A DNA stretch of 58,592 nucleotides, taken from assembly GCA_021298355.1 (NCBI GenBank), contig JAJTEH010000020.1:1-58592 (forward strand). Reading direction: 5' to 3'. Position 1 is the stretch's first letter; every line of letters starts with the position of its first letter. A program made the position numbers and the translations under genes. The notes under the pieces are model-generated. The model did not search any database and was not told the DNA's origin. It was given only the letters and a program-made list of their open reading frames with translations. Of this stretch, positions 3,001 to 58,592 are shown one piece after another. The DNA is from Flammeovirgaceae bacterium (lineage in GTDB: Bacteria > Bacteroidota > Bacteroidia > Cytophagales > Cyclobacteriaceae).

Positions 3001-5712
3001 TCCACCTAAAGCCAGCCCGGTAATATTGGTTAATGTGTAGCTGTTAACATCTTTTGAAGGAAATTTTGCTATAACATTGGAATAATTCAACGTAGCACTT
3101 TCGCCACCAACAAATCCGGACAATGTACCGCCAGAAAGTGTAGCGATGTCGCTGCCATCATAAACTTTATCGGCCTTTAGGTTACTTATGGTTAGTTTTT
3201 TCTTTAGAATAGACGCACTAACAACAGGTGTGGTAAGCGCGTAATTTGTTGTAGGTGCATTTGCAGCATCGTTAGTTGAAAGTGTGTAGCCGGTAATTGT
3301 AATGGTGTAAGGTCCTCCAATGGCAGATTCTGGAAAAGCAAAAGTTGGCGAACCTGATAAGGTTATAGGTTCTGAGCCATTAGCCGTTTTTACAACATTG
3401 TTTAGTGTTTGATCTCCGGTTAATGTAGCACTCTTATTACCATCGTATGGCTTATCGCTTATTCCTACATTTATGGTTAAAGGTCTTTTACCAATAGATG
3501 CTGTAGAATTGGGAGGTTGAGAAGTAAGACTGTAGTTACCAGCACTGTTTCCGCCTAAAGCGAAGCCCGTAAAAGTTACTGTATTTGTGTATGTTCCAAA
3601 ATTTTTATTCGGAAAATTTGCTTTAGCATTTGCGTCATCTAGTGTAACAACATCTCCTGAAATAACTCCGCTAAATTTAGGTGGTGAATCTGAAATAGAG
3701 AAAGTTCCATTCGTGTTACCATCGTATGTTTTATTATTCGGAATAACAGCAGATGAAATAGAAATAGGTTTTGGAGTAATTAAACTTGTTTTTGATGAAG
3801 GTTGTGCAAAAGTATAATTTCCGGCATCTTGGTCTTTTAAGGCAAAACCAGAAAATGTAACTGTTTTTGGATTTTGAGAAGCATTTGCATCTGCAAACTC
3901 TGCTTTGGCATTGGTTAAATTAATAGATACAAGATCGCCACTTACTGTGAACAATAAACTAGGTGCTGGATTGGTCTCAATTATAGCAGATTTATTACCG
4001 TCATATACTTTATTCTTTGCTGAAACACCTGAAAAAACTACAGTTTTAGCGGTAATAGATGCATTTGTAACTGTAGGGTTTGGTAAAGAATAGTTACCTA
4101 AACTATTGTTGTCTAACTTATAACCTAAGAATGTTACTGTTTTATTATTCTGCACATTTTTATCAGTAAACTCAGCGGTTATCGGTCCGCTTGTGTTTAG
4201 TGTAACTTCGTTATTTAAAACGCCATTTAATGTAAGTGTTTGATTTGCCGGAAATGGTGCACTTTTATTTCCATCATAAATTTTTGTAGTGGCACTAAGT
4301 CCATTTATCGTAAGCGGTTTAGGGTTTATTTTGCCTTTGACTGTGCTTGGATTAAGGTAGTATTTAAATGCTGCACCGCCTGTTATTCTGTAGCCAGTTA
4401 TAGTCATAGCTTTATTGATACCAACATTTTTGTTATCGTAAGTAAAAGTTGGGGTTCCTGTTAACGAAACCAAACCATTATCCCCTGGCTGTAAACCGGT
4501 TAACCCTGGTGAACTAGCTGAAGCAGGTGTTGCACTTGTTGTTGCATCGTACTCTCTCTCGAAAGCGATGTTGTTAAGCGTAACCTCAAGTGCATTGTTA
4601 AATGAATTATCCAATGAACCATTTTCGTTTAGTTGCACAATAGAATTTACAGGAATGTTATTATACGAGGTAAAAGTACTGCTTATTAAAATAATTTTTT
4701 TATTCGGTAGAATAACTGGTGGTCTGTTGATGGAATTGTTAAAGCCTGTGCCTGTTGAAAAAATTAAACTATTAACAAGGGCACCTGTTGAGCTTAATTT
4801 GGCAAATCTATTTTGGCCTGTAATACCACCCACTTCAGTAAAGTTACCAGCTATAAAAATATTATTGGTGTTAGGTTCCAATACTATTGCATTAATAGAA
4901 TTATTTGTAGTTGTTAAGGGATTTGCAGCCTGAATGCCGTTTATAATATTAAATGAGGATATAAAATTAAAGGCCCCTACCGCCAAAATGCGCGAATTAG
5001 AATTGTCGATTACAAAATGAGAAATGTTTTGGTTGAAGTTGGGGGTAAAGCCATTGTCTAATGTACCTGTTGTATTTAATCTTGCGAGTTTGCCCGTAAC
5101 ATCTCCCGACAGTATGATACTGCCATTACTTTGAACAGCATGGTGCGTAATGTTACCTAATGTAGTTGGGGGAACAAAGGAATTGTCGAGTGTACCATTT
5201 GAATTTAATATAGCTATTCTTGTTCGCGCTACATTATTTACAACTGAAAAAGTACCACTAATTACTATTCTATTATCTGGCAAAACAGTGGCGGTTGAAA
5301 TTCCACCATCGGTTACTACAGAGGTAAAGGAATTATCTAACGTGCCATCGCTGTTTAAGCGCTGCATATCCGGAGTTGAGCCAGATGAATTACCAAACAG
5401 CAAAATTTTATCTCCCTGTAAAGAAATTGAAGCGTTGATAACTGATGAAGGTTCTAGTTCAGAGAAAGATTGATCATTTAAACCAGTTGAATGCAAACGA
5501 CCAATACGCCCAAACGAAGCAGAGTTGTATGTCATATTGAGTGTTGAAGTGGTAACTAAAATTTTACCATCTGGTAATGCAGCCGCAGAAACTAAATTTG
5601 TTGAACTAAACCCCTTTTGTGCTATACTCTTATTTACAAGTAAACAAGAAAAGAAAAAAATTAGAGGAATGTAAAGTTTTATGCCAGGTAATGGTTTGAG
5701 ATTCATACGCAT
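1..5712 (-). CDS. Giant secreted delta-60 / YDG-repeat protein, 3' end outside the window
   Basis: The reverse frame is open from the left edge to an ATG at 5712 (second ATG at 5706), giving at least 1904 residues. The N-terminus is a signal peptide (MNLKPLPGIKLYIPLIFFFS, then a cleavage region ending SIAQ). Residues ~35-380 hold about six beta-propeller-like delta-60 repeats with the signature G(T/S)LDNSF. From ~385 onward come 17 tandem YDG-type modules of about 90-100 residues, each opening with K-x-YDGN-x-x-A and ending in a 'I-T-x-K-x-L' strand; the last module is cut by the window edge. YDG/MBG modules are known from bacterial surface adhesins and filamentous proteins. I infer a cell-surface or secreted adhesin-like protein, perhaps with a T9SS tail beyond the window. 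No enzyme motif is visible. It is missed by ORF callers that require a stop inside the window. Confidence 0.85.
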   Translation of the reverse strand, partial: MRMNLKPLPGIKLYIPLIFFFSCLLVNKSIAQKGFSSTNLVSAAALPDGKILVTTSTLNMTYNSASFGRIGRLHSTGLNDQSFSELEPSSVINASISLQGDKILLFGNSSGSTPDMQRLNSDGTLDNSFTSVVTDGGISTATVLPDNRIVISGTFSVVNNVARTRIAILNSNGTLDNSFVPPTTLGNITHHAVQSNGSIILSGDVTGKLARLNTTGTLDNGFTPNFNQNISHFVIDNSNSRILAVGAFNFISSFNIINGIQAANPLTTTNNSINAIVLEPNTNNIFIAGNFTEVGGITGQNRFAKLSSTGALVNSLIFSTGTGFNNSINRPPVILPNKKIILISSTFTSYNNIPVNSIVQLNENGSLDNSFNNALEVTLNNIAFEREYDATTSATPASASSPGLTGLQPGDNGLVSLTGTPTFTYDNKNVGINKAMTITGYRITGGAAFKYYLNPSTVKGKINPKPLTINGLSATTKIYDGNKSAPFPANQTLTLNGVLNNEVTLNTSGPITAEFTDKNVQNNKTVTFLGYKLDNNSLGNYSLPNPTVTNASITAKTVVFSGVSAKNKVYDGNKSAIIETNPAPSLLFTVSGDLVSINLTNAKAEFADANASQNPKTVTFSGFALKDQDAGNYTFAQPSSKTSLITPKPISISSAVIPNNKTYDGNTNGTFSISDSPPKFSGVISGDVVTLDDANAKANFPNKNFGTYTNTVTFTGFALGGNSAGNYSLTSQPPNSTASIGKRPLTINVGISDKPYDGNKSATLTGDQTLNNVVKTANGSEPITLSGSPTFAFPESAIGGPYTITITGYTLSTNDAANAPTTNYALTTPVVSASILKKKLTISNLKADKVYDGSDIATLSGGTLSGFVGGESATLNYSNVIAKFPSKDVNSYTLTNITGLALGGANPNNYFIDQPTNLPAKITAKDLTLTGVAAKNKQYDGTTDAEIITTNIAFSGLVPGEGAPNIDFSTLNAKATFASKNADNSTAKDVTYTGFTISGGLAGNYNFIQPQKTTAFIFPREVSVKDISIEEKEYNGNVSANFINKGSLDNMVVSEAIKYSLNSANAKADFLTKDVGTNKSLVVSGYTLFKSDGDVNFPLSNYVMKQPTNVTGEIKQKPVNVSVTAIPRVYDGTITVALGNATLSGVIPAEMGSIVLDPNAVTIATVLDKNVAPSKAVTVTGFKLVKQGNLPDISTNNYVVVQPQNLTVQISAKPLTVTGISVASKEYNKTDVAQISGSATLSGLVQDDADKKTVTLNTVGAAAKYSSMNAGGPYAVTISGYTIGGVDAPNYDFKQPTVPNASITQKTVTITGITAQDKTYNGNNTATLSGTAALVGVIPGDLSPTPLVEINTNNIPSATFASINTGSHNITVNGYVLKGSAANNYTIQQPFTLQNKAIINKAPVTISGVTSSNKVYDGNKNAAIVGQATYSGVILDDIASDAIDEAVNVTNAKAEFVDANAGPNKDVIFTGFALAGDPTAINNYQVTQPTKVQAQITQKPLTLTGLSAKDKVYNKNKDAEIIKNNLALSGLVSVDVGAGLVDISEVNPKAVFAFAEVGKHTITFSGYGISGSKAPNYAFSPPTNVQASITPKELEMQGISIEPKVYDGNTNAKVLGTASLISSQILSGDQVGLVTITPVASFVDKNANPNPKDVTISTFTLNGNQAANYKLKQPSLTGFINRKELTITNNTANISIGNKEYDGNTNAIIKGSLNQLDGIVGSEKVTLVAQNAKANFDTKNVANNKPITITGFDLGGDDFVNYTLKQPTFLTANITAKPLTVTGIAVTPKVYDRTKTVTFTNKGTLSGLVASDAALVTLNTTNATAEYSDVNVANYMLNVTGYTLNGTATDIANYTFTQPQAFSASITPKPLTLSNLTIQDKTYDGTLTAQISGNAGLVGVISPD

Positions 5713-6184: not shown

Positions 6185-9100
6185 TTAATGTTGAATTATT
6201 ACCCTGTATTTATAAGTAGCGTTTTTGTGTTCTATTGAAAATATATAAAGTCCTGATTTAAACTTCCTAACATCGAGTGTTTGTAATCCTTTATGTAGTT
6301 GTATTTCTTTTATTCTCTCTCCAGATGGTTCTATCACATGTAGTGTTCCTCCATTTATTTCATTTAAATTTAATGTTAGCCATTCTGATACTGGGTTAGG
6401 AAAAATAGAAATATTTTCTTCCACATGATTTGTAACACTTACTACATCGTCATCTTTTTCTGAGAAACATTTAATGATTTTACCATAGCTGGTAAAAACA
6501 TAGAAAAGATTTTCGCTTGCGGCAACAATTTTTCTAATGCTTTCTCCACTTTCTAAATCTGTTAGTATTACTTTTTGTGTGCCTTGCGGTGTTCCGTTGC
6601 TTTTCCAAAGTTGTTTATCAAAACCATTTCCGGCAATAAAATAAAGTTCGTTTTTATGGTTAATAAAATCAGCCGGGTAGCTATCAAATGCACCGGGCAC
6701 AATATCTTTTAACAAAATTGTTCCGGCAGGTGTGCCATCTGTTTTCCACAATTCAGAACCTGTTATTGGCTCTATTGCAGCGAAATATAGCACTCCGTTA
6801 ATGGCAATTGCCTCATTTATATTGCTGCTTGGTGGCCCGGGATTTATATCTTTAATAAGTTCGGCATTTCCTAAAGTGCCGTTGGTACGCCAAAGCTCAA
6901 AACCGTTTATACCATTGTTGGCAGAAAAATAATAGTGATCTCCCATTTCTGCAAGCCCGTAAGGGTTTGAAGATTGATTACCCGGATTAATATCTTTAAT
7001 TTCTACTGCACCGTTTGTATCATCTGTTCGCCATAATTCGCCTCCGTTTTCGTGTGTAGCATTAAAGTATAAATACTTAGAAGAATTGGTTGTTTGAAAA
7101 ATTATAGTGTTTGAATTTAACACACCGGGCATAATATCTTTTACCAATTGGGTGCCAGCAGTTGTGCCATCAGACTTCCATAATTCGTTGCCTTCCGTGG
7201 CAGTTGTGGCAGTAAAATAAACCTGGTTGCCCAATGCTGTTAAATATCCTGGAAAAGAACTGGCAGTTCCCGGCCCAATATCTTTTACTAAAGTGGTTCC
7301 TGTGTTGGTTCCATCACTTAGCCATAATTCAGTTCCGTTTGTGCCATCATCTGCCGAGAAATAAACTTTGTTACCGACTGACTTTATAATGCCAATAGAG
7401 CCATTGATCGCTCCTGGTCTAATATCTTTAACTAATTGGGTTCCGTTTGGTGTGCCATCGCTTTTCCATAATTCGTAGCCGGTATTGGCTTGATTGGCCA
7501 TAAAATAAACTTGATTACCAACCGAAGTAAGCTTAGAAAGTAACTTATTATCATCTGGTAATACTTTCGGTATTATTGCCTTAGAGTTTCCATCGGTAAA
7601 CCACAATTGTTTACCATGAACGCCTGAAACAGCAGAAAAGAAAATAGAATTACCAGCGGCTACAAATTCGCCATAAGTATTTAATTCTAAATCCCGATTT
7701 AAATTAAGCAAGGTTGTACCTTGTGTTGTGCCATCCGACTTCCAAATTTCCTCACCATTAACGCCATCGTCTGCACTAAATAAAAAAATGGTGTTGTTTG
7801 TTGTAAGAGAGGGGATTCCATTTCCGATTGATGGAATACCGCTTTTACTACCAGGATTAATATCCTTTATTAAGTAAGTGCCAGCTTCAGTACCATCACT
7901 TCTCCATAGTTCAAGTCCTTCTGCTGAAGTTTGTGCTGTAAAAATTAGAGTATTGTTCCGAACAAACATGGAGAAAATACCTGAACCTATTTCTCCAGGC
8001 TGAATATCTTTTACCAATTGTGTATTAGTACCATCCGTTTTCCACAATTCTAAACCTGTGGCTTGCTCTGATGTAGTAAAAAAAAGCTGATTGTTATAAT
8101 TAATTAAACTACCTATTACAAAATCTTTCGTTTTTGTAGTGCCTGCATCCGTACCATCCGTTTTAAACAAATGAGTACCCGTGCCATCATTAGCTGTAAA
8201 ATACAATTGGTTATTAACTACTGTTAGTTTTCCAGCACTTCCAGAATTAGAACCGGAACGCATATCCTTTACCAAACTTACTTGCTGTTGAGCAATTGAA
8301 TACTTGAATAATTCTTGTCCAATTAATGCATCAGCTCCATTAAAATATACATCTCCACCCATACCCACTGCTTCTAACACTTGCAAATTTTGCCCTGCTG
8401 GAGCAGAACATGTATAAATGGGATATGTTCCGGCTTCGGTTCCATCGCTACGCCACAATTGTTGAGAATTAATACCACCGTCTATTACAGTAAAATATAA
8501 AGTGTTTTGATAAACAAGAAAATTGCGAATTAATGATGCAGTCAAACTTTTAACAATGGAAGTTCCATTAGGCGAGCCATCAGATTTCCAAAGATCGAAT
8601 CCTTGATTACTTTCTATATAAACTGGAAAAAAAAGTAGGTTATTTAACGCGGCAGTTGCTTTTAAGCTATGTGTAAAGGTGGGAATAGATTCTGTACTAC
8701 CTTCAATAATATCTTTAACCATTACTGTGCCGTTTTCGGTGCCATCGGTTTTCCAAAGTTCGTAGCCATGTATACCATCATTTCCTGCAAATAAGGTTAA
8801 ACCATTAACAACACCTAATAAATATGGTTGTGAACTCTGGTTGTTATTGTTTAAATCTTTCAGAATTTTTGTACCGGCTACAGTGCCATCAGTAATTCCT
8901 AATTCTCCGTTTATTGATAAAATTGTTTTTCCATTAAGAGCTGGTATGGGCGAGATAAAGGGTGGGTAGTAATTATTTGTACCCATATTTTTCAGGTCTT
9001 TATCTAGATTTGATATCAACGTTTGTTGTTGAGCAACTATGTGAATGGGTGATAAAATAGAAAGTAATAGGATCAAGGATTTATGCAAGGTTTCTAGCAT
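6185..9100 (-). CDS. ELWxxDGT-repeat secreted protein with T9SS sorting tail
   Basis: The 971-residue protein starts with a signal peptide (hydrophobic stretch, then PIHIVAQ) and carries about sixteen copies of the motif (E/Q)LW(K/R)(S/T)DGT-x-x-GT-x-L-x-KDI, spaced about 50-60 residues, from roughly residue 110 to 880. ELWxxDGT repeats are predicted to form beta-propeller-like blades and occur in large exported proteins of Bacteroidota and myxobacteria. The last ~75 residues (ISIFPNPVSEW ... LKSGLY-like ... YRVIIQH) match a type A T9SS sorting domain, so the protein is probably exported by the type IX system and attached to or released from the cell surface. No catalytic residues are recognisable. 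A TAAGTTTG element lies about 100 bases upstream and a terminator follows downstream, so it is probably monocistronic. Confidence 0.85.
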   Translation of the reverse strand: MLETLHKSLILLLSILSPIHIVAQQQTLISNLDKDLKNMGTNNYYPPFISPIPALNGKTILSINGELGITDGTVAGTKILKDLNNNNQSSQPYLLGVVNGLTLFAGNDGIHGYELWKTDGTENGTVMVKDIIEGSTESIPTFTHSLKATAALNNLLFFPVYIESNQGFDLWKSDGSPNGTSIVKSLTASLIRNFLVYQNTLYFTVIDGGINSQQLWRSDGTEAGTYPIYTCSAPAGQNLQVLEAVGMGGDVYFNGADALIGQELFKYSIAQQQVSLVKDMRSGSNSGSAGKLTVVNNQLYFTANDGTGTHLFKTDGTDAGTTKTKDFVIGSLINYNNQLFFTTSEQATGLELWKTDGTNTQLVKDIQPGEIGSGIFSMFVRNNTLIFTAQTSAEGLELWRSDGTEAGTYLIKDINPGSKSGIPSIGNGIPSLTTNNTIFLFSADDGVNGEEIWKSDGTTQGTTLLNLNRDLELNTYGEFVAAGNSIFFSAVSGVHGKQLWFTDGNSKAIIPKVLPDDNKLLSKLTSVGNQVYFMANQANTGYELWKSDGTPNGTQLVKDIRPGAINGSIGIIKSVGNKVYFSADDGTNGTELWLSDGTNTGTTLVKDIGPGTASSFPGYLTALGNQVYFTATTATEGNELWKSDGTTAGTQLVKDIMPGVLNSNTIIFQTTNSSKYLYFNATHENGGELWRTDDTNGAVEIKDINPGNQSSNPYGLAEMGDHYYFSANNGINGFELWRTNGTLGNAELIKDINPGPPSSNINEAIAINGVLYFAAIEPITGSELWKTDGTPAGTILLKDIVPGAFDSYPADFINHKNELYFIAGNGFDKQLWKSNGTPQGTQKVILTDLESGESIRKIVAASENLFYVFTSYGKIIKCFSEKDDDVVSVTNHVEENISIFPNPVSEWLTLNLNEINGGTLHVIEPSGERIKEIQLHKGLQTLDVRKFKSGLYIFSIEHKNATYKYRVIIQH

Positions 9101-14405: not shown

Positions 14406-17400
14406 ATGGAGCCCATTCAAAATTCCTTGCGAGTGCTTGCACTCGTGCTTATATCCTATGTTTCTTTTTCGCAAACGCCCGGAGGAGTTTCTGCTAATTT
14501 AAGCCTCTGGCTTAAGGCTGATAATGGCCCCGAAAATATAAGTGCTTTACCTGCAAGTAATGGCGAAGCTGTAATTACCTGGCGCGACAGAAGCGGTTTA
14601 GGCAGAGATTACATTGGAGTTGCCGGGCCAACACTTGTAAGCAATGTTCTAAATTTTAATCCGGCTGTAGAAATTTTATCAGGTGGTTTTGATGCTCCGG
14701 TTTCTGCCGCACTTACAACCAATTGGTCGGTCTTTACTGTTTCCCAAAAATTAGCCTCTGATAACAACGGCCGTATTTTCGATGGCCATACTTCTAATTT
14801 TCTATGGGGACACTGGGGTAATTTTACCAATAGTATTTTCCTGAATGGAAATCCTTCGAATTTTAATTCTGGAATTGCCACAACTATTGGTATACAAGAT
14901 TTAAAACTTCATGCTTTTTTACGCGAATCTGCAGGTGGAACTTTAGAAGCCCGCTCCGATGGCACATCTCTTACCGTATTTCCTACCAGTAACAGCGCTA
15001 ACACTATAAGAATCGATATCAATCAAGGAAACAATGCTGGCGAAACCTCAGACTCGCGTATTGGCGAGATGATTATTTACGACAGGTCTCTTACGCCAGC
15101 CGAAGTAATTCAGGTAGAATCTTATTTAGCCATAAAGTATGGTCTTACAATCAACCACAATTATGTTTCATCTGCAGCTACTACTCTTTGGGATCTTACG
15201 GCAAACGCTGGTTTCAATACACGTATTACGGCAATCGGCCTAGATGCTGGCTCCGGTTTAAATCAGCTTCAATCCAGAAGTCTTTCCGCTGGAGCTGTTT
15301 TAACGATTCAAAAACCAATTGCTTTTTCTGCCAGCGGAGATTTTGTTGTTGTGGGCGATGACAATGGAAGTTTAAACCCTACTCCTTCACAAGTACCTGC
15401 TGGTTTTAACAACCGTATAGCTCGTATCTGGCGAAGCAGGGTGAGTGGTACTCCGGGTACGCTATCTATTAGTTTTGATCTTAGCTCGGGAATCTTCAAT
15501 TCCGGCAGAATAGAAGATTATGCGTTGGTGATCAAAAATACAGATTCCGATTTTTCTTCCGGTGCCACTCAAGTTGTTGCATCATCTTTAGTAAACAATG
15601 TTATTACATTTGATAACGTTACCCTTTCAGATGGAGATTTTTTTTCGCTTGCCTTTACCATCAATACACTTATTGCCTCGCAAAATCCGGTGTTTTGGGT
15701 TAGGGCAACTAATGGGGTTACCGGTGTTGCAGATGTTAGCAACTGGGCCGATCAAAGTGGAAATGGCAAAAATGCTATACAAAATACAGTGGCTAATCAG
15801 CCAACACTTTTGGCAAATGCAGTAAATGGTTATCCTGCAATAGACTTTACTGGCAGTACAGACGTATTCTCCATTACCTCACCACCTACTAATGTAAATT
15901 CTACCATTTTCACAGTGGCGGTACCAACTGTAAATACAAGTTGGCGAACCATGTTTAGAGGTACCGGCACAGACCATCCTATTATAGTTCAATCTGGCGG
16001 CACGCAACTAGGCTATTTTGATAACGACAATGGAGGTTTCAGAGCGAGTGGTTTTACGTGGTTACAGAACGAAACAGCAGTGGTTGCTGCAGAGTTAAGA
16101 ACAGGCGATGTAAACTTTAGAAAAAATGGAGCACAAGGGGCATCCATTACAACAATAGATTTAACCGGAATAAGTTTAAACTTCTTCGGGAACTTTCAAA
16201 GTGGTGGCCAACGATTTGGACAAATTGCAGAAACCATCATTTTTAACTCCCCTACTCCTTTAACAACAAATGAAAAAGAAATTATAGAATCATACCTGGC
16301 GGCAAAGTATGGTGTTACGCTAACGCATAACTATATGGCGTCAACAGGTTTAACCTACTGGGATATTGCAGCGAACACTGGTTTTAACGAAAGAATTACA
16401 GTAATTGGAAAAGACGATGCCGTTGGATTAGATCAACGTAGATCTAAAAGTGAAGCGGCTACTTCAGTACTAACAATTGAAAAAGATAATGTGGCAACTC
16501 CGTTTTCGAATAATCTGGATTTCTTAGTTGTTGCCGATGATAACGGTGTGCTACAAGCAACATCCTCTAACCTTCACCCATCAAGGCCTTTGCGTGTATC
16601 TCGCATTTGGCGTGTGGCCTCAACCGGCACACCTGGTTTAGTAGATCTTAGTTTTGACCTTGGCACAGGTATATTTAATTCAGGAATTGCAGCCGACTAT
16701 ACACTTTTGATCAACAACACTACTCCTGATTTTACAACTGCTTTTGCGCTAACCGGAGGTGTTTTAAATGGTAATGTTTTAACTTTTTCTTCTGTATCCT
16801 TATCCTCAGGTTCTTATTTCAGTTTGGGGCTTCCGCAAGTGGCAAGCCCCGGTGGTGTAATTAATAATTTAAAAGCCTGGCTTAAAGCCGATGCAGGAGT
16901 AACCGGTATTACAACTGTATCCGATTGGCAAGATCAAACCTCTAATAATTTTCTGGCAACACAAGCAAATGGTGCCGCTCAACCAACCTTGGTTGCCAAC
17001 AGACTAAACTTTAATCCTGCCATTCAATTTGATGGATTGAATGACCAGTTGATTATACCGGGCGGAATAATGGGAACGGCAACTTATTCTGATTTAAATG
17101 TATTTGCTGTAACAAGAACCAACACAGTGCAGGCAAGCTCAGTGTTTTTTGAAACACAAGCTGGCGGAGGAAGAATAAACGCACACATGCCCTGGAGCGA
17201 CAATAATCTTTATTGGGATGCAGGAAGTACATCTGCAACTAACCGGCAGAATACAAACTGGGGTGGCAGTGTTAATACCGGTTTCATTTGGAGTTTACTG
17301 GCCAGTACCACCTCTACAGCGTTGGGTTCTAATCAAAATATTGTAAGAAACGGATTACTTGTGCTGGCAGACGGAACCTTAAACACATTTACAGGCAATA

Positions 17401-20400
17401 ACAGCAACATGTTTATTGGTTCAAACGGTACAAATTTATTCAACGGTGAGATAAGTGAATTGCTTTTTTACACCGGCCCCTTAACCGCAGTTGAATACAA
17501 TAGAATACATAGTTATCTGGCAACCAAGTATGGCATAACCCTTAATCAAGCTACACCTACAAACTACACAGCATCAGACGGGTCGGTAATTTGGGATGCC
17601 ACCACAAATGTTGCCTATAACAACCGAATTACAGGAATTGGAAGAGATGATATCTCCGGGCTTGACCAACGCAGGTCTAAGAGCAGTGGTACAGGTGCAA
17701 TAGTTACAATCGAAAAAGAAGATATTTCATCTGCCTTTACAAACCTTCAATTTGCTTTTGTAAGCGATGATGGAGCCTCGCTTGGAGCAACTACAAACAA
17801 TGTTGTTAGCCCTTATCCTATGCGTGTTACGCGGGTTTGGCGCGCAGAAATTTCCGGCACACCTGGTAATTTTGATTTGACTTTCGATTTAGGAACTGGA
17901 ATTTTTAACAGCGGTGTGGCCTCCGATTACGCTTTATTGATTAACAATACCAATACAAATTTCGAAACAGGTTCAACAGTAATAACCGGAGGGGTTATTG
18001 CAGGTTCAGCCATTACGTTTTCTAATGTTTCGTTAGCAGATGGTGCATTCTTTACATTGGCATTACCAAGCCAACCCGCACCAGGAGGTGTAATTACAGG
18101 TTTAGGTGTTTGGTTAAAAGCAAATCAAGGTGTGTTTGCCGATGCTGGCATTACTCCGGCAACCGATGCCGGAGTTGTACAAAGATGGGCGGATGCTACC
18201 AGTTTGGCAAACAATGCTACACAAACAGGTAATCCTATTTATAATACTACTTCTAACTTAATTAACTTCAATCCCACACTTTACTATGATGGTGCAAGTG
18301 GTCATAATCTTACCTACAGCACCATTAATCGCTATTCTATTTTTACCATGTCGCGCTTGGAAGGTAGTTTAAATAGAAGAGTATTTTCAAGTAGAATTGG
18401 AAATGCTTTAACCGGTTATTGGAACGGACGCGAAGATGTAATTTTTCTGGATGGCGCCCCTAACATATTAAGCGGATCGGCAGCCTCAACTAACCCTCGC
18501 CTATACGCAACAGTTAGAAGCAATCCAGGAGCGTATCAGATGTTTCGTAATGGATTATTGCTTTACAGCGGGGCTACCTCAAACAACAGCAATTGGCAAT
18601 TAGGAATAGCCAACGGAGGTGCTGCAACAAACGAATCAAGCCGTGCTTATGTAGCCGAAGTAATTCAATACGACCGAGATTTAAATGCAGATGAATTAGT
18701 GCGCGTTCAATCGTACATGGCCATTAAATATGGCGTTACATTATCACAAACTACTCCAACAAATTATGTTGCCTCCGATGGAACAATACTTTGGAATGCA
18801 ACAGACAATGCAAATTATGCAACAGACATAGCTGGTATTGGTTTAGATCATGGGTCTGCTTTATCGCAGATTAGATCGCAAAGTATAAATGCTAACTCAA
18901 TTGTGTCTATTGACAAAGGTGGTCCTTTTGCAAGTAATCTAGATTTTATAATGTGGGGAAGTGATAATGCATTTTCATCTCCCACAACGGTTAACCGACA
19001 TCCTTCTTATCCTTATCGCTTTGGAAAAACCTGGAGGGTTGATGTTACAGGAAATCCAGGTACAATAAGCATAACATTTGATTTAGGATCCGGAGTATAC
19101 AATTCGGGTGTAGATGCTGATTATGCCCTGCTTATAAATAATACAACCGATTTTGCAACAGGAACAGCCGTAACAGCTAACCGAACACTGGTTGGCAATA
19201 CGCTAACTTTTACTAACGTTACCCTACAAGATGGAGAGTATTTTACGTTAGCCATGCCAAATCCACCTGCACCTGGAGGTGTAGTAAATAATTTAGCTTT
19301 ATGGCTAAAGGCCAATCAAGGTGTAACCGGAGTTGCAAATGCCTCGGCATGGTCAGACCAAAGTGGTAATAACATCAATGTTGTACAAAACAACACCAAC
19401 AACCAACCCGTTATCAATACCGAACGCATTAACTTTAATCCCACGTTACAATTTGACGGAGCCAACGATAACCTTAGCAATAATTTAGGTATTTTAGGCA
19501 CACGCACATATAACGATATCTACGCCTTTGTTGTATCCAGAACCAACACAGTTCAAAACAGTTTTACTTTTTTTGAAAACACAACAGCTGGTTCACTTGG
19601 CTTCAGAATACCTTGGAGCGATACCAACGCTTATTGGGAGCCTAGCACTGCCGCAACAAACCGATTGATACAACCTTGGGGTGGAAGAATAAACACACCT
19701 TACTTATGGTCTATGGCAGCAAGCACAACGGCTACTATAAGCGGGCAGCGCCAGGATTTAATTCGCAACGGTTTTACCATACTTAGTGATTTAACGTACA
19801 CAGCTTTCTCCGGAAACAACAACGCATTCTTTTTAGGAAGTGGCTCTGGCAATAATTTCTTCAATGGAGAAGTAGCCGAAGTAGTACTGTATGGCGGAGC
19901 AATAACATCAACTGAATTTAACCGCATACAAACTTATTTAGCCATCAAATATGGTGTAACATTGCCCACCACCGACTACACAAGCAGTGCAGGCACTTTG
20001 CTTTTTGGAACCACATCTACACACAATACGTACAACTTTAACGTTATAGGTATTGGCAGAGATGATGTATCTGAACTATCACAAGTAAAATCAAGGTCTA
20101 CAACCGAAACAGCAGACATACTTACGATTGCAAACGGAAACTTTACTACTCCGTTACCATTCTCTAATTCAAACGAATTTTTAATGGTAGGACACAACAA
20201 CCGAAACCTGCAGGCCGATGCCACACAGCAAACCATAACCCATGGAGGCACAAACATCGATAGATATTTAAGTAGAGTTTGGAGTACACAATTAACAGGA
20301 AACCCAACAGGTAATGTTATAATTGAAGTAGACATGACCACCGTTGCCGGAACAAATGATTTAAATGCGATCAGGCTGGTGCTCGATTCAGATCAAACTT

Positions 20401-23400
20401 TAGGAAACTCTTCTGCTGGAGAATTTACCTATACAGGCACAATTTCCGGAAACTTACTGTATTTCAATATTCCATATTCCGATTTTGTAACAACTCAATC
20501 TTTTTTCACAATTGCCTCTACCAACGAAGGCATTGCACCCTTAACAATACCAACACCGGGCGGTATTACGGGCAATATTCGATTATGGTTACATGCAGGT
20601 GCTGGAGTAACAGGCAATACACCGGTAACCAGTTGGCAAGATCAATCCATTAATGCTTTTGTAGCCACCACCACCAACGGACCAGACTTAGTAACGACAG
20701 GTTTTAACAATAACCCTTCTTTAAGTTTTACAAGGGCTAATGCAGAATTTATGCAGATTGTTAATGGCATAACAGGAAGTAACTTATACAATAACGCCTG
20801 GGTATATGTGGTAAGTCAGCCCACACAGGTTGTGAACCAAACATTGTTTTACGAGCGTATGGCTGGTTCTAACAGAACGTTTAATGTACTAGTTCCCTGG
20901 GGCGATGCAAATACCTATTTTGATTTTGGCAATTCGGGAGGTTCCGGCAGAATAAGTGGAGCTTGGGGAGCCAATGTAAATACGCATTTCATGTGGACAT
21001 TTGGTACAAGTACCAGCACGGCCACACCTAACGGAACACGAAAATCTGTTTATAGAGACGGAGCTGCAATTTTAAGTAACAACAATACTGATAATGCATC
21101 TGGTAGTAATCAGAATTTTATAATTGGTGCAGGATTTAATTCAGGTGCTACAAATACAAATAACTTCGATGGAAGAATTGCAGAATTAATTGTGTTAGCA
21201 GACGTACCTTCTGCGCTAGACCAAGAGAGGGTTCACTCCTACTTGGCCATAAAATATGGTATCTCGAAAAATAGTGCGGATAATGCAGGAACACCTGCTA
21301 CTGATGAACGTGATTACTTTGCATCAAACGCAGCCGTACTTTGGGATTTTTCTGCTAACCTAGGTTTTAACAACCGAATTACGGGCATAGGAAGAGACGA
21401 TCTTACTTTGTTAAATCAACTACGCTCGCAAAACAAAGCCAATCAATCCATTGTAACAATCGAGAAAACTGGAAACTTCAATAATGATTTAGATTATCTG
21501 TTATGGGGAGATGATAACGGATTATTAGGGCTAACCACCACCGGAGCAAATGCCATTTTAACCTACCGCACTGCCCGCGTGTGGAGGGCAAATATTGTCA
21601 ATAACCCTGGTGAAGTATCGGTTTCTTTTGATTTAGGTGGACCGATTTTCAATAGCAATTCCAGCAACGATTATCGTTTACTTATAGGCAATAGCCCTAC
21701 CTCATTTACAACTGCCAACGTAATTAGTGGAACCATTATTGGAAACACCATTCGTTTCGATGGTGTAACTTTTAATGATGGAGATTTCTTCACGTTAGCA
21801 GTCGCCAATATGCCGGCACCGGGTGGCGTAGTTCCTAATATGCATTATTGGGTAAAAGGAGATGTAGGAACAGTAGGTGCAACTACGGTTTCAGCGTGGA
21901 ACGATCAAAGTGGAAATGGTTTTAACGTTGCACAAGCTACACTCGCCAACCAACCTACTTTACTCAATCCTCGGTTAAACTTTAATCCATCTGTTCAATT
22001 CGATGGAACTAACGATCAACTAACACTCGCAGGTGGAATTCTGGGCAATACAACGTACACAGACTTTAATGTGTTTGCAGTTTCACGCGTAAATGTTGTA
22101 AGCAACAATTCTCTGTTTTTTGAAGCAACAACAGCCAGCGGCCGCATAAATGCTCATTTACCTTGGGGAGATAACATTTTATATTGGGATGCCGGCTCAG
22201 CAAGTAGTACGCAACGCTTGCAAATAAATTGGGGTGGATCTGTAAACAATTCCTTCATCTGGAATTTATTATCCAGCACAACCAACACAGCAAGCGGGCC
22301 CGGCAACCGACAAGAAATATTCCGAAACGGGAGGAGAATTGCGAACGACAATACATTAAACACATTTCAAGGAAACAATGGCGCAAGTAATTTCTTTTTG
22401 GGCCACAATAATGGAGGCAGTTTATTTAATGGCGAGCTAAGTGAATTGGTAATGTATAGAGGTCCGTTATCGCTAAGTCAAATGCAAAGAATTCAGAGTT
22501 ATTTGGCCATTAAGTGGGGTGTAAGCCTGGATCAAACCACACCAACCAATTATGTTGCATCCGATTGGAACGGTACAACAGGTACAATTATTTGGAATGG
22601 AACAACAGCCGGTACTTTCAGAAACGACATAACAGTAATTGGTAGAGATGATCTATCTGCCCTTAACCAAAAACAAAGCCAAAGCGCAACACTAGGCAAC
22701 TTACTTGTTATAGGAAATGTAAACATTACAACAGATAACCAAACCAACAGCAATAATTTTGGAACAGATCGTTCTTTCTTAGCCTGGGCACACAACAACC
22801 TTGCAGTATCCGGAAACGGTGTAACCGACTTCGGTACAACAGTAAATGCCGAAGTAATACAAACCCGAATTGCCCGCGCATGGCGGGCAACAGAAACCGG
22901 AACCCTCGGAAATGTCAAGATAAGATTTAACCTATCTACACTACTTGGTGTTGGCGGAGTTGCCGGAGATAACGACTTAGCAAACGTTAGATTACTGATT
23001 GATGCAGATGGTGTTTTTGCTACCGGTGCTACATCCATTGCTCCTACCTCATTTAATAACACAACTGATGTGGTAGAATTTGATCATGATTTTAATGCTT
23101 CAACTGGCTTTTTCTTTACGTTGGCAAGTACGCAACTTTCCAGTACACCGCTACCGGTTGAGTTAATCTACTTCAGAGCAAATGTTAAAAATCAAATAGC
23201 TCAACTAACATGGGCAACTGCAACAGAATTGAATAACGATTACTTTGTTGTTGAACGTTCTGGCGATGCAGAAACATGGCAAAAAGTTGATGAAAAGGAC
23301 GGCCAAGGCACAAAAGTAACCGAAACAGTTTATAACCTGAACGATCCTACTAAAATTAACGGTACTGTATATTACCGACTGGCACAAGTTGATTATGACG

Positions 23401-52180: not shown

Positions 52181-52717
52181 ATGAAAAAAAGAATTTTACT
52201 TCCCGGATTGCTTTTTTTGCTTTTAATTCCGAAGGTATCGTCTGCTCAACAAAGTGCGATTAAGATAAATGTTTTAAGTCCTATTTTCAGAACACTAAAC
52301 GTACAATACGAACACAAAATCAAAGAAAGCTCGAGTTTACAACTTGGCTTTTTTTACACTGGAAATTCCATTGGCGATACTAAATTCTCCGGTTTTGGAA
52401 TAACGCCCGAATATAGGTTTTACTTATCCGAAACAGAAGCTATTCAAGGTGTGTATTTAGCTCCATTTGTACGCTACCAAAGTTTTGATCTAACACAAGA
52501 AATTGATGACTCTAAAGCTACACTCTCGACATTTGGAGGAGGGGTAATTATTGGTAAGCAATGGGTTTTCAAAGAAAAGGTTGTATTAGATTTGTTCATA
52601 GGCCCGGCCTATAATTCAGGATCTGTAAAAGTAAAATCGGGAACCGATAATTTTGATGTAGGTACTTTTGATGGCTTCGGGCTACGCACCGGTTTTTGTC
52701 TTGGGTTTGCTTTTTAA
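52181..52717 (+). CDS. Small outer-membrane beta-barrel protein (DUF3575-like)
   Basis: The 178-residue protein has a signal peptide (MKKRILLPGLLFLLLIPKVS, cleaved after SSAQ) and about eight amphipathic strands (IKINVLSPIFRTLNVQYEHK, YLAPFVRYQSF, GGGVIIGKQWVF) ending in FCLGFAF, as in DUF3575/OmpA-like barrels. It probably sits in the outer membrane; function unknown. A terminator shared with the atpC fragment lies about 170 bases downstream. Confidence 0.75.
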   Translation: MKKRILLPGLLFLLLIPKVSSAQQSAIKINVLSPIFRTLNVQYEHKIKESSSLQLGFFYTGNSIGDTKFSGFGITPEYRFYLSETEAIQGVYLAPFVRYQSFDLTQEIDDSKATLSTFGGGVIIGKQWVFKEKVVLDLFIGPAYNSGSVKVKSGTDNFDVGTFDGFGLRTGFCLGFAF

Positions 52718-52883
52718 TTTTACAAATAAGCCATAACAAGGCTTACATCTTATTCATTTGAAATGCATAAAAACGGTAAGTACTTTAACTTAATCGTTCA
52801 TTAAAAAAAGCGATTCAGATTAATCTCATTTTAATCTGAATTATGAGGTATACTATTTTAAATGAATAGGATTTATTGCACAT

Positions 52884-52918
52884 AAAAAAAGCTGCCTTTC
52901 GGGCAGCTTTTCTTTTTC
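52884..52918. terminator. Bidirectional terminator, copy of the atp operon terminator
   Basis: Arms GCTGCC and GGCAGC inside A/T flanks can end the plus-strand beta-barrel transcript and minus-strand reading of the atpC fragment. Its sequence (AAAAAAAGCTGCCT...) and position relative to atpC match the terminator at 54657-54684, so it was duplicated with the atpC fragment. Confidence 0.75.
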
Positions 52919-52931
52919 TATAAAAATTATT

Positions 52932-53094
52932 TTAAGCTTTTACACCATCTGCAAGTAGAACAACCTTATTGTGCAATACTTCTACTACACCACCGGTGAT
53001 ATTTACTTTTTGTCTAGCTCCCTTGGTTTTGTATTCTACTTGTCCTTCTTTTAATAATGAAACAAACGAGGCGTGTTTATTCAAAATCTGAAAA
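52932..53094 (-). pseudogene. atpC: Truncated second copy of atpC (3' part)
   Basis: This stretch encodes the last ~53 residues of the epsilon subunit (from FQILN to ADGVKA), with the stop codon kept and no start. Compared with the intact atpC at 54708-54953 I count about 11 base differences in 162, four of them changing the residue (Asn to Lys, Pro to Ser, Leu to Phe, Thr to Arg), mostly near the broken end. The homology also covers the terminator downstream. It is a partial duplication left on the far side of the 391-residue gene and cannot make a working epsilon subunit. Confidence 0.9.
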
Positions 53095-53209
53095 TAAATT
53101 ACTGCCAATAAAAAAATTGAAAGGGATAAGGTTTGGAAACTACATCAAACTTTAAGAATTCATTTACACAAACAGCCCGTCTTAGTTGATGTTACCTTAT
53201 AAAACATTA

Positions 53210-54385
53210 TCAATAAAAATTTTTTGAATAAAATATTTTAATCAAATAAAGCAATCCACTTAGTAAATGCATAGCTAAACATACATACACTGCTATTTTT
53301 CTTGAATTAGAAATTTTTCGCGAATTCTTTTGTTGTATAAAAAAAGAAATTGCAGTTATAAAAATCAAATACATGGTAATTACATTTTGCCAGGTAAAAT
53401 TACCATCATATTTTCTAGGCCCGGTTTCAATTACAAAAACTGAAATAAAAAATCCACATACGTGCATGCACCACGCATACAAAAATGGTTTATACCTGAA
53501 TATAGATTTAAACCATATGCTTATTAAAATTAAAAAAGCTAACGAAAACAAAATGGAAAAAGGTAAATACCATACCGGAATATAATGCAGAAATACTTCG
53601 AAAGGTTTTCCAATACTAACGCTACTAATTTCTGATTGAATAGAACCTACTTGAAGAAAATAAAACAAATAATATTGTATACCCACTACACTTGCACCCA
53701 ACGCAATAGGAATGAAAAGAGTATACTTTTTTGTTGTATCTAAATTTTTATCGAAAAAAATAAACAAGATGGTTGCAGGTAGATACACAAATAGAAAGGA
53801 AGGCTTAATAATTGCATTAACAATAATTAGTAGGCTTAGAGATGCCAGATCTATTTTGCTGATGGTATGGTTAGAATGCAGTACTTTAATCTGTTTAAAA
53901 AAAAGTAGCATAGCAAAAGGGAAAACAAATATAGTAGTTGAATTATGCCAAACATGTGGCGCCACCTTACCGATGTAGGCAATCTTTAAATAAAAAATTG
54001 AAACGGGGTCTAAAATAGGAAACATAAAAAATGTTGCCATTGCCAATGCCAGAATCTTTATGTTACTATTAGCATCAGGAAATAATTTTTCGTGTGTGTA
54101 AAAGGTAACGGTTAAACTATACTTATAGTAACAAGAGATAGCCAGTATACTAGCTGCCACGACAGATAAGTAATTTATATTGATGAAATTCGAAAAAAAA
54201 CTAATTAGTAAATAGAAACCGAAATTGGCCGGATAGTTTGATAAATTTTGATTTATCCTAATGGCATGGTTGATATGTAAAATAACATCATTACTTGTTA
54301 AGGTTATGATTAAATAAAAAAGTAGAGTTAATGTAAGTAGAAAAGTAAGGTTGAAAAGATTTTGACTATAATTTTCTTTCATCAA
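53210..54385 (-). CDS. Polytopic membrane protein, possibly GT-C-like
   Basis: The 391-residue protein has about ten hydrophobic helices along its length. The motif GKVAPHVWHNSTTIFVFPFA near residue 138 recalls the loop of polytopic glycosyltransferase-like (GT-C or EpsG/Wzy-type) proteins, but I cannot confirm a family. A second ATG lies one codon in. It sits exactly between the two copies of the atpC 3' end, so it was probably inserted along with a duplication of that end. Base use is AT-rich (Lys, Ile, Phe, Ser codons) compared with the atp genes, consistent with transfer. No integrase or transposase is present. Confidence 0.65.
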   Translation of the reverse strand: MMKENYSQNLFNLTFLLTLTLLFYLIITLTSNDVILHINHAIRINQNLSNYPANFGFYLLISFFSNFININYLSVVAASILAISCYYKYSLTVTFYTHEKLFPDANSNIKILALAMATFFMFPILDPVSIFYLKIAYIGKVAPHVWHNSTTIFVFPFAMLLFFKQIKVLHSNHTISKIDLASLSLLIIVNAIIKPSFLFVYLPATILFIFFDKNLDTTKKYTLFIPIALGASVVGIQYYLFYFLQVGSIQSEISSVSIGKPFEVFLHYIPVWYLPFSILFSLAFLILISIWFKSIFRYKPFLYAWCMHVCGFFISVFVIETGPRKYDGNFTWQNVITMYLIFITAISFFIQQKNSRKISNSRKIAVYVCLAMHLLSGLLYLIKIFYSKNFY

Positions 54386-54424
54386 GTATATATTTAGCCG
54401 TTAACAGCTATGAAAGGAGAAAAA

Positions 54425-54432
54425 CAAAATTA
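54425..54432 (-). promoter_or_regulatory. Candidate -7 element of the polytopic protein gene
   Basis: The minus strand reads TAATTTTG, a full TAnnTTTG match about 40 bases before the ATG. No TTG at the -33 distance. The rest of 54386-54656 shows one AT-rich inverted repeat (CATAAAAGC and GCTTTTATA, near 54524-54553) and no gene. Confidence 0.4.
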
Positions 54433-54656
54433 TATTTACCTCTACCAATTAGATATCAGTAGAAAATCAAACTTCATAAACTTTCAACCAAAAGAAAATA
54501 ATTTTAAAAAGCAATGTATAGTAGCATAAAAGCTCAGAGGTTATGCTTTTATACTTCTTGAATGATTTGGTATGTTGCCTGTAGAAATTGGCATTTTTTC
54601 GCTACAACCAGATACATAAGGTATGAAGCAGTAGAAACTTTTTTGATTGATTGGAT

Positions 54657-54684
54657 AAAAAAAAGCTGCCTCATCAGCAGCTTT
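54657..54684 (-). terminator. Terminator of the atpD-atpC operon
   Basis: On the minus strand arms AAAGCTGC and GCAGCTTT form the stem around TGATGAG and are followed by eight T, about 25 bases after the atpC stop codon. Confidence 0.85.
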
Positions 54685-54707
54685 CCATTTTTATTTTTAA
54701 AGTAAGA

Positions 54708-54953
54708 TTACGCTTTCACACCATCTGCAAGTAGAACAACCTTATTGTGCAATACTTCTACTACACCACCGGTGATGTTTACTTTTTGTGTAGCTCCCTT
54801 GGTTTTGTATTCTACTTGTCCTTCTTTTAATAATGAAACAAGAGGAGCGTGGTTATTCAATATTTGAAAAGAACCATCAGCACCTGGAAAAATAGCTGAG
54901 TCTGCTTCTCCTTCGAATATCTTTTTTTCTGGTGTTACTATCTCTAAGAACAT
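54708..54953 (-). CDS. atpC: F-type ATP synthase epsilon subunit (short form)
   Basis: The 81-residue protein is the beta-sandwich part of epsilon alone (MFLEIVTPEKKIFEGEADSA, IFPGADGSFQILNNHAPLVS, VEVLHNKVVLLADGV); the C-terminal two-helix regulatory arm found in many bacteria is absent, as is common in Bacteroidota. It acts in the F1 stalk, linking the rotor to the catalytic head. It is the second gene of an operon with atpD, 82 bases downstream. A truncated second copy of its 3' end lies about 1.8 kb away. Confidence 0.93.
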   Translation of the reverse strand: MFLEIVTPEKKIFEGEADSAIFPGADGSFQILNNHAPLVSLLKEGQVEYKTKGATQKVNITGGVVEVLHNKVVLLADGVKA

Positions 54954-55035
54954 AATTCAAAATTTCAAATACAAAATATCAAATTTCAAATCTCAGACCC
55001 ACATTCTTGAATCTGAAATTTGGAATTTCAAATTA
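54954..55035. repeat. AT-rich spacer with short repeats between atpD and atpC
   Basis: The spacer contains four to five variants of AAATTTCAAAT and one CTCAGA/TCTGA inverted pair. It looks like a short intergenic repeat; no gene is present. Confidence 0.5.
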
Positions 55036-56550
<1,515 letters not shown>

Positions 56551-56620
56551 TTATTGTGGTTTAATAATTTAAGTGATTGATTTACAAGGATTTTAGAGCT
56601 AATTGCCCTTAAATCGACCG

Positions 56621-56652
56621 CAAAAGTAGCCTTTCTTATTTGCTTTGACAAA
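56621..56652 (-). promoter_or_regulatory. Promoter of the atpD-atpC operon
   Basis: On the minus strand TTTG (56649-56652), a 20-base spacer and TACTTTTG (56621-56628) match both Bacteroidota promoter elements fully. The predicted start is about 70 bases before the atpD ATG. Confidence 0.75.
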
Positions 56653-56685
56653 TACTTATCAACTTAATTCAGAAATGTTGATCCC

Positions 56686-57381
56686 TCAGGAAAAATGTCT
56701 GCTCAACCACCCCACCAGGCGCCAGCGTTTGGTTATGTAAGCTACCTTCTTTTTGTTCTTTATGGCGCTATCCATTTGTGCGGCTGCTTTGTTTACATCT
56801 GCCACCCAAAACTTTGCTTTAGCTTTGGCCATTGGTGTATCTACAAAACCTGTACGCAAGTCGGTAAACTGAATCAATTTTAATTTTTCGTAAGCAGCTT
56901 TTAAACGCAAACTTTTTAAATAATTTATTTGATAGGCTTTGCTTGCATTATAGGCAGGCGCATGTCGGCTGCTCATCATGCCTGCGATGGATGTAATACT
57001 GGCAAATACTCCTTTTTCTTTTTGTTTAAAATAATGCCAACACCAATCGGCAATTTGCGTAAAGGCCACAGCATTCGTATCTACCATCGATTTTTCGATC
57101 GTAAAGTCTAACTGCTTATTGAATTCTCCTACACCCGAACTATACACTATGGCCTCGAGTTGCCCTGCTTCGCTTGCTATTTTTTCTAAATGAAAATTAT
57201 TTTGCAACGTATTTACATCGAACACGGCTATTTTAATTTGTTGTGGATATTGCTGTTGAATTTCTTGTAAGAGGTTTTCTCTTCGTCCTGTTATGTATAC
57301 TGTAATACCTTGTGCTGCCCAGCGTAAAGCTAATGCTTTGCCAATGCCTGATGATGCGCCAATGATTAATGCTTTTTTCAT
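56686..57381 (-). CDS. Short-chain dehydrogenase/reductase
   Basis: The 231-residue protein has the Rossmann glycine motif GASSGIG (residues 8-14) and a catalytic triad Ser131 (SITSIAG), Tyr144 and Lys148 (YNASK). The YSSGVGEFNK region matches the usual NNAG position loosely. Arg33-Arg34 after the second strand suggests NADPH use. The substrate is unknown. Its ATG directly follows the stop codon of the upstream histidine kinase, so the pair is translationally coupled. Confidence 0.88.
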   Translation of the reverse strand: MKKALIIGASSGIGKALALRWAAQGITVYITGRRENLLQEIQQQYPQQIKIAVFDVNTLQNNFHLEKIASEAGQLEAIVYSSGVGEFNKQLDFTIEKSMVDTNAVAFTQIADWCWHYFKQKEKGVFASITSIAGMMSSRHAPAYNASKAYQINYLKSLRLKAAYEKLKLIQFTDLRTGFVDTPMAKAKAKFWVADVNKAAAQMDSAIKNKKKVAYITKRWRLVGWLSRHFS

Positions 57382-58584
57382 TTATGTAGTTGCTGTTATG
57401 GCTTTTAAAACGATGCGAAAAGTTGTGCCTTGATTTTCTTCTGAAGATTTTACAAAAATTTGTCCGTTGTGGTACGATTCAATAATACGTTTTGCCAAGG
57501 CAAGCCCAAGGCCCCAACCTCTTTTTTTAGTGGTGAACCCAGGATTAAAAACCATCGGGATTTTAGAACGCGGAATTCCTTTTCCTGTATCCGAAATATC
57601 AATCAATACTTTGCTTTCGCTGCCTCGTAAAATTTTGATGGCAATTAATCCCGAACTACCCATAGCGTCCACTGCGTTTTTGCATAAGTTTTCTATCACC
57701 CACTCGAATAAGGGCGCGTGTACATTGGCATAAATAGTTTCTGATAAAGTATATACTTCTAATCGAACTTTGGCAGAAATGCGCGGGCGTAAATATTGTA
57801 CTACATTGTTAATCAACAGAACAACATTTTCTTGTTTAAGTACGGGTACTGAACCAATGCTGGAAAAACGCTCGGTAACAATGGTTAATTTTTTTACATC
57901 TTTTTCTAATTCATCAACAATGCCTTTTTCGCGAAGGTTGGTATCATCGCGCAACACTTCCATCCAGGCCATTAACGATGAAAGGGGTGTTCCTAATTGA
58001 TGCGCTGTTTCTTTGGCTAAACCTACCCATAATCTGTTTTGTTCTGCTTCTTTTGAATAGTTGAATGCCAGATAAGAGATAATCGCGAAGATGGCGATAA
58101 CGGATAACTGTATGTACGGATAGGCAATTAATTGTGTAAGTAAAAATGAATTTTCGTAATAAATATATTGCACAGCAAATACCTGACCGTTATCCATCAA
58201 TGAAATTTTGATGGGTTCGTATTGCTCGCGCATGGTTTCGATTTCGTCTTTTAAAAACTTTGTGATTTCGGCTTTATGTAAAGTGGTATCTACATCCACA
58301 TTACGATAGTCTAATACCTCGCCTCGCTCATCTGCAATGATGATGGGTATAGAATTATTTTGAAATAAAATTTCCTGCGTAATAAAGTTGATGTTATCTC
58401 CGCTCGCATCGTTTTCATTTACTGTATACTCTAATGTTTTAGCATACAATTGAATTTGGTCTTTCTCCTGTTCTTTTAACTGATTAACCAAAACATTGGT
58501 ATACCAGATAGATCCTGAAGAAATGCATACCGAAACCAAAAGTACAATCCACTTCCAGCGGGCTTGCGAAGTGTAGAGGTTCAT
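57382..58584 (-). CDS. Membrane sensor histidine kinase
   Basis: The 400-residue protein has two membrane helices (near 12-30 and 155-175) around a periplasmic domain of about 120 residues, a HisKA domain with His195 in KETAHQLGTPLSS, and an ATPase domain with NLCKNAVDAM, DTGKGIPRSKIPMVFNPGF and GWGLGLALAKRI. The cognate regulator is not seen next to it; the next gene is an SDR, and further genes may lie past the right edge. The start falls about 8 bases from the window end, so upstream elements are missing. Confidence 0.9.
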   Translation of the reverse strand: MNLYTSQARWKWIVLLVSVCISSGSIWYTNVLVNQLKEQEKDQIQLYAKTLEYTVNENDASGDNINFITQEILFQNNSIPIIIADERGEVLDYRNVDVDTTLHKAEITKFLKDEIETMREQYEPIKISLMDNGQVFAVQYIYYENSFLLTQLIAYPYIQLSVIAIFAIISYLAFNYSKEAEQNRLWVGLAKETAHQLGTPLSSLMAWMEVLRDDTNLREKGIVDELEKDVKKLTIVTERFSSIGSVPVLKQENVVLLINNVVQYLRPRISAKVRLEVYTLSETIYANVHAPLFEWVIENLCKNAVDAMGSSGLIAIKILRGSESKVLIDISDTGKGIPRSKIPMVFNPGFTTKKRGWGLGLALAKRIIESYHNGQIFVKSSEENQGTTFRIVLKAITATT

Positions 58585-58592
58585 GGTAGGCA

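Follow-up and report, generated by a model that had tools for sequence, protein, structure and literature searches.

Prophage e14 lies in icd, and other integrases also aim at the 3′ ends of genes. The e14 account describes an intact hybrid gene together with a displaced 3′ pseudo-copy at the far side, a pseudo-icd of 163 bp (PMC6379469). One survey reports half of its gene-transfer hotspots to be without sign of mobile elements and proposes that the flanking genes recombine by homology instead (Oliveira et al. 2017, PMC5635113). In these integrase-free hotspots, as in the minimal mobile element (Saunders and Snyder 2002, via PMC3898611), varied whole-gene cargo occupies one site by a conserved gene; no mobility gene is seen in the cargo, incorporation is described as going via the two conserved flanking genes, and homologous recombination is the likely agent. 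Two further processes are described in an E. coli study (PMC3240628). In its plasmid conjugation assay, 56 of the 60 analyzed Lac− recombinants had a part of lacZ duplicated as judged by PCR (109-950 bp in the 14 that were sequenced), which the authors ascribe to a single crossover of a circular molecule missing part of the lacZ segment. The other process, homology-facilitated illegitimate recombination, has one homologous and one illegitimate end and generally deletes recipient DNA.

The arrangement described here lies behind atpC in Cyclobacteriaceae. It shares with e14 in icd the intact, presumably hybrid, gene and the displaced 3′ end, but no integrase or phage gene is seen in the atpC cases, and the crossover position is not fixed across all of them. 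Like the minimal mobile element and the integrase-free hotspots, it has varied whole-gene cargo without visible mobility genes at one conserved gene, and homologous recombination as the likely agent. Unlike what is described for them, the atpC slot has inside it a copy of one flanking gene's 3′ end; the cargo was therefore added, and in later transfers this single gene could provide the two ends. A partial gene duplication of variable size around inserted foreign DNA is common to this slot and to the lacZ duplications, although the latter come from a laboratory system, whereas the atpC case is natural, is repeated at one gene, and is known from its product alone. One homologous and one illegitimate end are likewise shared with homology-facilitated illegitimate recombination, except that recipient sequence is here duplicated. 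The papers listed in literature searches (on atpC as an integration site, on atpC or insertion hotspots in Algoriphagus and other Cyclobacteriaceae, and on single-crossover additive integration) include no apparent description of this arrangement. Our best reading is an integrase-free exchange slot with an insertion-duplication scar, the window's locus being one of about five events at the slot; most likely the scar was left by ordinary DNA recombination and not by a virus-like element.

The window, of 58,592 nucleotides, is one whole contig (JAJTEH010000020.1) of the draft genome of a Flammeovirgaceae bacterium, here G000. The order on its minus strand is atpD, atpC, terminator, gene X, atpC tail, terminator, after which a DUF3575 gene follows on the plus strand. 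The native upstream side is an ORF of 502 aa at 55036..56544 (minus strand), which we take from its sequence to be atpD; positions 54657-58590, 3.9 kb, have 89% DNA identity to the congener G002. The intact atpC (54708..54953, minus strand) encodes an 81-aa ATP synthase epsilon chain (PF02823, E 2e-23) identical in protein (100%) to that of G002. Its terminator occupies 54658..54691 on the same strand (hairpin 54662-54684), and the proximal repeat has its 3′ boundary near 54645. On the far side of gene X lie the distal atpC 3′ fragment (52932..53097, minus strand; codons ~28-81 plus the stop, no atpC start, with a weak protein-level match out to 53117) and the distal terminator (52884..52917, minus strand; hairpin 52887-52911), which is now also downstream of gene X. 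Both terminators were scored as stem-loops with T-tails. The first 27 codons are missing from the distal fragment, and stops in its frame occur shortly upstream; we therefore regard it as a remnant. The native downstream side is the DUF3575 gene (52181..52717, plus strand; PF12099, E 9e-19), with a 78% identical protein in the congener G004.

A repeat search of the window shows that the last 53 codons of atpC and the terminator are present twice in the same direction, 1,776 bp apart. The main repeat pairs 52913-53097 with 54689-54873 (185 nt, 89%) and the terminators pair 52884-52917 with 54658-54691 (79%); a gapped alignment joins 52870-53097 to 54645-54873 in 230 columns at 86% (E 8e-71). 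When the whole draft genome (3.6 Mb) was searched with the AtpC protein, two places matched, both at this locus. The center of the repeat, 52942-53065, has two mismatches in 124 bp (98%), and identity is much lower in the arm of codons 28-38 and in the terminator, a pattern that gene conversion between direct copies could leave. A single ORF lies between the copies; translation from the TTG at 54385 gives 391 aa, and from the ATG that follows it, at 54382, 390 aa. Its G+C content is 0.287 against 0.374 for the window. The duplication and the lone AT-rich gene within it were thus correctly seen in the initial annotation. Its further proposal, an insertion after which atpC is complete next to its promoter and an extra 3′ end lies beyond the inserted DNA, agrees with the position of the distal copy next to the DUF3575 gene, which in G004 is kept about 1 kb from atpC with another gene between. 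Other direct repeats in the window (60-250 bp, 66-80% identity, at 6691-8767 and 16892-22552) are probably repeated domains or paralogous genes. Elsewhere in the same genome, a 68-71-bp repeat (92%, 7.1 kb apart; locus L063, 2-69 and 7107-7177) possibly represents cassette recombination sites.

Gene X (53210..54382, minus strand) encodes a probable multi-helix membrane protein. It has no match in Pfam, PADLOC, or NCBIfam; an alignment of its family gave no match in a profile search against the PDB, and a single-sequence fold model had a mean pLDDT of 48, too poor for a fold search. Matches to X were found in 36 of 390 genomes of the order (its own included), at 23-35% identity. A first set of 59 genomes, again with its own, contained one other genome with X, and the other four searched genomes of the window's genus have none. 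Seventeen homologues aligned with X (23-31% identity) leave 16 invariant residues, which include D33, H37, K88, W146-H147-N148, K194-P195, E320, N329, and W332-Q333.

The flanks were compared at 31 X-type loci, the window's own among them, and two of the 30 others have a comparable direct repeat, one strong and one weak. In G440, which belongs to another family, an X homologue (34% identity) has on one side an unrelated membrane-protein gene with its 3′ end intact and on the other a repeat of that end (locus L100, 861-954 and 2696-2789; 94 bp, 97%). In G056, a 45-bp, 84% copy of the upstream gene's end (locus L034, 1170-1213 and 2789-2833) stands behind the X homologue, and could equally be a relic of a paralogous gene. 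These repeats indicate that genes besides atpC can acquire such a scar, and they hint at something about X rather than about atpC. The X homologue of G056 is flanked by two genes that we take to be glycosyltransferases, so a role of X in surface polysaccharide is possible.

The atpC-tail copy occurs in six genomes (G000, G002, G142, G372, G340, and G346), corresponding to about five separate events, and five different cargos were found at atpC. Looking beside atpC in relatives, as the initial annotation had suggested, thus shows that the arrangement recurs with other genes; gene X itself was seen beside atpC in no other genome read. In G002, a gene of 414 aa lies between two copies of the terminator and last atpC codons (75 bp, 92%, 1,638 bp apart). 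This gene has no Pfam family at E 0.01, and its start is one we read as lipoprotein-like. The downstream side of G002 is rearranged, with a DAHP synthase/chorismate mutase gene in place of DUF3575. That gene (locus L036, 8667-9918) is found elsewhere in G000, on contig C36, so that one end of the rearrangement falls at the atpC slot.

Outside the window's genus, G142 (genus g78 of the Cyclobacteriaceae) has 263-bp copies at 98.5% around a cargo of 13.6 kb with genes on both strands. Dehydratase N and C parts, a LanC-like cyclase, a C39-peptidase ABC transporter, and HlyD, LytTR, sigma-factor, and CHAT proteins are encoded in it, and it looks like a class I lanthipeptide system. The remaining three cases are in a genus (g103) that we take to be Algoriphagus. 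G372, a single contig of 5.9 Mb, has 217 bp at 96% and a further 45 bp around a gene for a 357-aa TolB-like protein, and G340, found in DNA scans of 22 and then 68 loci, has the same TolB-like gene within a 96-bp repeat (84%). From atpD through atpC to the cargo, G340 and G372 form one unbroken alignment at 84%. Their distal tails are 89% identical to each other over 73 bp, compared with 85% over 224 bp and 78% over 116 bp between a distal tail and the other species' proximal one; on these sequence comparisons the two probably share one old insertion that both have kept. The genes adjoining their distal tails are 26% identical, the neighbors having changed. What drew attention to G346 is that its atpC contig runs out 59 bases beyond the stop codon. 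This case is incomplete, being split over two contigs; the second carries the same terminator together with codons ~42-81, and at least 77 bases of it match the first exactly. Genes for paralogous lipoprotein-like proteins stand on both sides of the distal copy, and the second contig ends in a gene that we read as a transposase.

In the five fully read cargos (G000, G002, G142, G372, and G340), whose ORFs were catalogued at a minimum of 60-100 aa and the main ones scanned for domains, we saw no integrase and found no mobility or phage genes. With regard to a defense role, PADLOC matched neither X nor the G002 and G372 genes.

Tail copies are present in three of 51 Algoriphagus genomes, one of 19 genomes of g78 (DNA read for 11), and two of five in the window's genus; these counts are lower bounds because some loci have little downstream sequence. 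The 51 Algoriphagus genomes were taken from 61, the ten omitted each having one or no match in the atpC protein search. That search covered 390 genomes of the family and found a second atpC match in six of them. For G000, G142, and G372 this other copy is downstream on the same strand, and the second matches of G102, G382, and G408 were dropped, being located on other contigs. Protein searches miss copies as short as that of G002. Outside the family, the same kind of search covered 395 genomes of the class, 371 of them with an atpC match; among the 362 of these that are not in the family it found no downstream tail copy. Eight of the 362 have two matches, six as one gene in two adjacent pieces and two as a 5′ fragment elsewhere (G876, locus L225, and G1003, locus L227, both on another contig). 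Nor is there a tail copy at 79 named atpC loci with enough downstream sequence (8 kb on average; 80 fetched), some of which are from genomes in the other counts; an apparent upstream match in one of them, L166, was the query itself. A short DNA scan of 60 loci, mostly 1.3 kb downstream, returned G002 and chance or tandem matches in L032, L074, and L079; the L074 match proved on inspection to be no copy. The atpC tail had no DNA match on plasmids, and by protein it matched four plasmid and three phage records, each of them below 60% identity and without a Cyclobacteriaceae name.

We also scanned 170 loci for repeats of an ORF's end downstream of that ORF (2.95 Mb, overlaps included, with 3,717 ORFs no shorter than about 100 aa, a large share of them chance ORFs). 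The scan returned atpC in four loci and a doubtful ORF in L058, G142 being missed by the filter and the X-type loci, with G440, lying outside the scan. The idea that gene-end duplication is common everywhere is not borne out in these loci. Several atpC loci had been chosen for their repeat, so the rate should be taken from the Algoriphagus figure. The scan also returned a repeat of another kind in L272, where the first 57 bp of a pyrF-like gene (OMPdecase) recur at 95%, 2.4 kb away, around two genes (4355-4411 and 6733-6789).

The two ends of the repeat differ in their constancy. In the five pairs measurable on both sides, the 3′ boundary falls between +54 and +63 from the atpC stop, at the end of the terminator T-run, and identity drops at once beyond it (13-20 of 20 bases before, 6-9 of 20 after); the G346 contig stops at +59. 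The 5′ boundary varies from -204 to -19. It lies at -165 in G000, -19 in G002, -33 in G340, and about -108 in G346, so that four of the six genomes have different starts; the starts of G142 (-204, equal to -201 in Algoriphagus numbering) and G372 (-201) coincide. Two Algoriphagus genomes without a tail copy, G328 and G380, instead have 5′ atpC fragments downstream of atpC. That of G328 (locus L261) covers 52 bp, starts shortly ahead of the start codon, and reaches -196; that of G380 (locus L243) is 24 bp, to -197. They lie at +1865 and +1640, respectively, from the atpC stop. The fragment ends meet the G142 and G372 repeat starts at the same codons, near codons 15-17. Four of eight boundaries fall within 6 bp (p about 0.003 under uniform placing, in a test made after seeing the data), and this shared break in four genomes leaves room for a site-specific mechanism.

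The region behind atpC is variable in Algoriphagus. Between atpC and a conserved tyrosine recombinase gene (PF00589, E 4e-37) lie 435-8,601 bp, with a median of 2,057, at the 45 loci measured out of 52. We therefore consider this interval a general gene-turnover slot, a minority of whose states include a tail copy. In 17 of the 45 loci, the slot holds a fast-changing gene of ~375 aa without a Pfam match, which we read as lipoprotein-like and propeller-like. Adjoining atpC in loci L236-L286, this gene is 26 to 76% identical between species and sometimes in tandem, an unusually fast turnover. In Algoriphagus a conserved gene borders each side of the slot (atpC and the recombinase gene), whereas in the window's genus the downstream side differs between G000 and G004, on the one hand, and G002.

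The account that we favor, at somewhat less than an even chance, is that donor DNA, once circularized, enters the slot behind atpC through a single RecA crossover, which brings in genes and leaves the atpC tail in duplicate. In a donor relative, X would have followed immediately after atpC and its terminator. A piece broken from this donor, starting somewhere in atpC and extending through X, would have been circularized in the recipient and have entered by a single RecA crossover in the shared atpC tail. The product would be an intact hybrid atpC, a terminator, X, a truncated atpC tail, a second terminator, and the native downstream gene. Cargo would thereby be added and not exchanged, X would gain a terminator, and the repeat would remain as the scar. 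Later recombination between the copies could homogenize their core by gene conversion or remove the cargo. Circularization, RecA, the direction of transfer, and gene conversion are steps that we infer from the product. Such a single crossover would explain the additive cargo, the fixed end (where likeness between donor and recipient ceases), the scattered starts, and the missing integrase.

The 3′ ends speak in both directions. In G340, sister-species matches reach 92% for the distal 3′UTR and 85% for the proximal one, as a native distal end would predict. In G000, the proximal terminator is nearer to that of G002 than the distal one is, the opposite direction, and conversion between copies may blur which 3′ end groups with the species. 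The ends of G142, G346, and G372 were uninformative. Counting against a single crossover are, besides this terminator, the coinciding starts of G142 and G372, the repeats beside X homologues in G440 and G056, and the rearranged downstream side of G002. A donor with X behind atpC and no duplication was not found in the genomes searched.

Another possibility, which we consider doubtful, is a site-specific element that puts its cargo into the 3′ end of atpC by means of a recombinase since lost or supplied from elsewhere, brings a replacement end, and displaces the native one. The e14 insertion is a known long 3′-end duplication with an intact hybrid gene (PMC6379469). The common break near codons 15-17 in G142, G372, G328, and G380 also fits such an element better, and a tyrosine recombinase gene forms the far border of the Algoriphagus slot. 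This gene is present, however, whether the slot is 435 or 8,601 bp wide, and it was not seen in the sequence read beside atpC of G000, G002, or G142. The degraded integrase element entertained in the initial annotation is not supported: G142 looks recent, with 98.5% identical copies, and no integrase is seen in its 13.6 kb, and the repeat starts mostly differ, unlike one att core. The insertion-duplication named beside it is supported. It is also conceivable, if improbable, that integrase-free cassettes are at work, in which the cargo and a copied atpC tail with its terminator move as one unit, with preferred cut points at the terminator end and codons 15-17; the X family may do likewise at other genes, as in G440 and G056.

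A plain tandem duplication, of a segment starting within atpC and including the cargo, would involve no horizontal transfer at that step; the second cargo would then have been lost or have diverged. The paralogous lipoprotein-like genes flanking the distal copy of G346 are what it predicts, but self-comparison of the G000, G002, G142, and G372 loci shows the tail repeat alone there and no second cargo, and the G340 cargo protein matches once. The X cargo is moreover far more AT-rich than the upstream flank (G+C 0.288 vs. 0.415), and we hold this explanation to be unlikely. Every measured repeat ends at the terminator T-run, which might point to a break or a hairpin-bound nuclease setting one end there, by hairpin-guided single-strand insertion or by paired nicks that give a large target duplication. 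The same boundary follows without any such mechanism if likeness between donor and recipient stops behind the terminator, and no candidate nuclease was noticed in the cargo; we judge this very unlikely. A retro-copied mRNA end is ruled out by the genes on both strands of the G142 cargo. Although G000 and most of its relatives are draft assemblies, an assembly artefact can be given hardly any weight, because many positions differ between the two copies, and because independent assemblies, the single-contig G372 among them, show the arrangement again.

If the cassette reading were true, an essential gene would be a reusable landing site, its duplicated tail giving both homology arms, and a cassette could move between strains whatever lies downstream. 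The scar in the slot, an atpC tail with a measurable 5′ break and measurable divergence, would let the entry route, the crossover point, and the age of an insertion be read from sequence. The locus shows that cargo can be added beside an essential operon without harm, and the duplicated gene end may offer later transfers a homology arm already in place.
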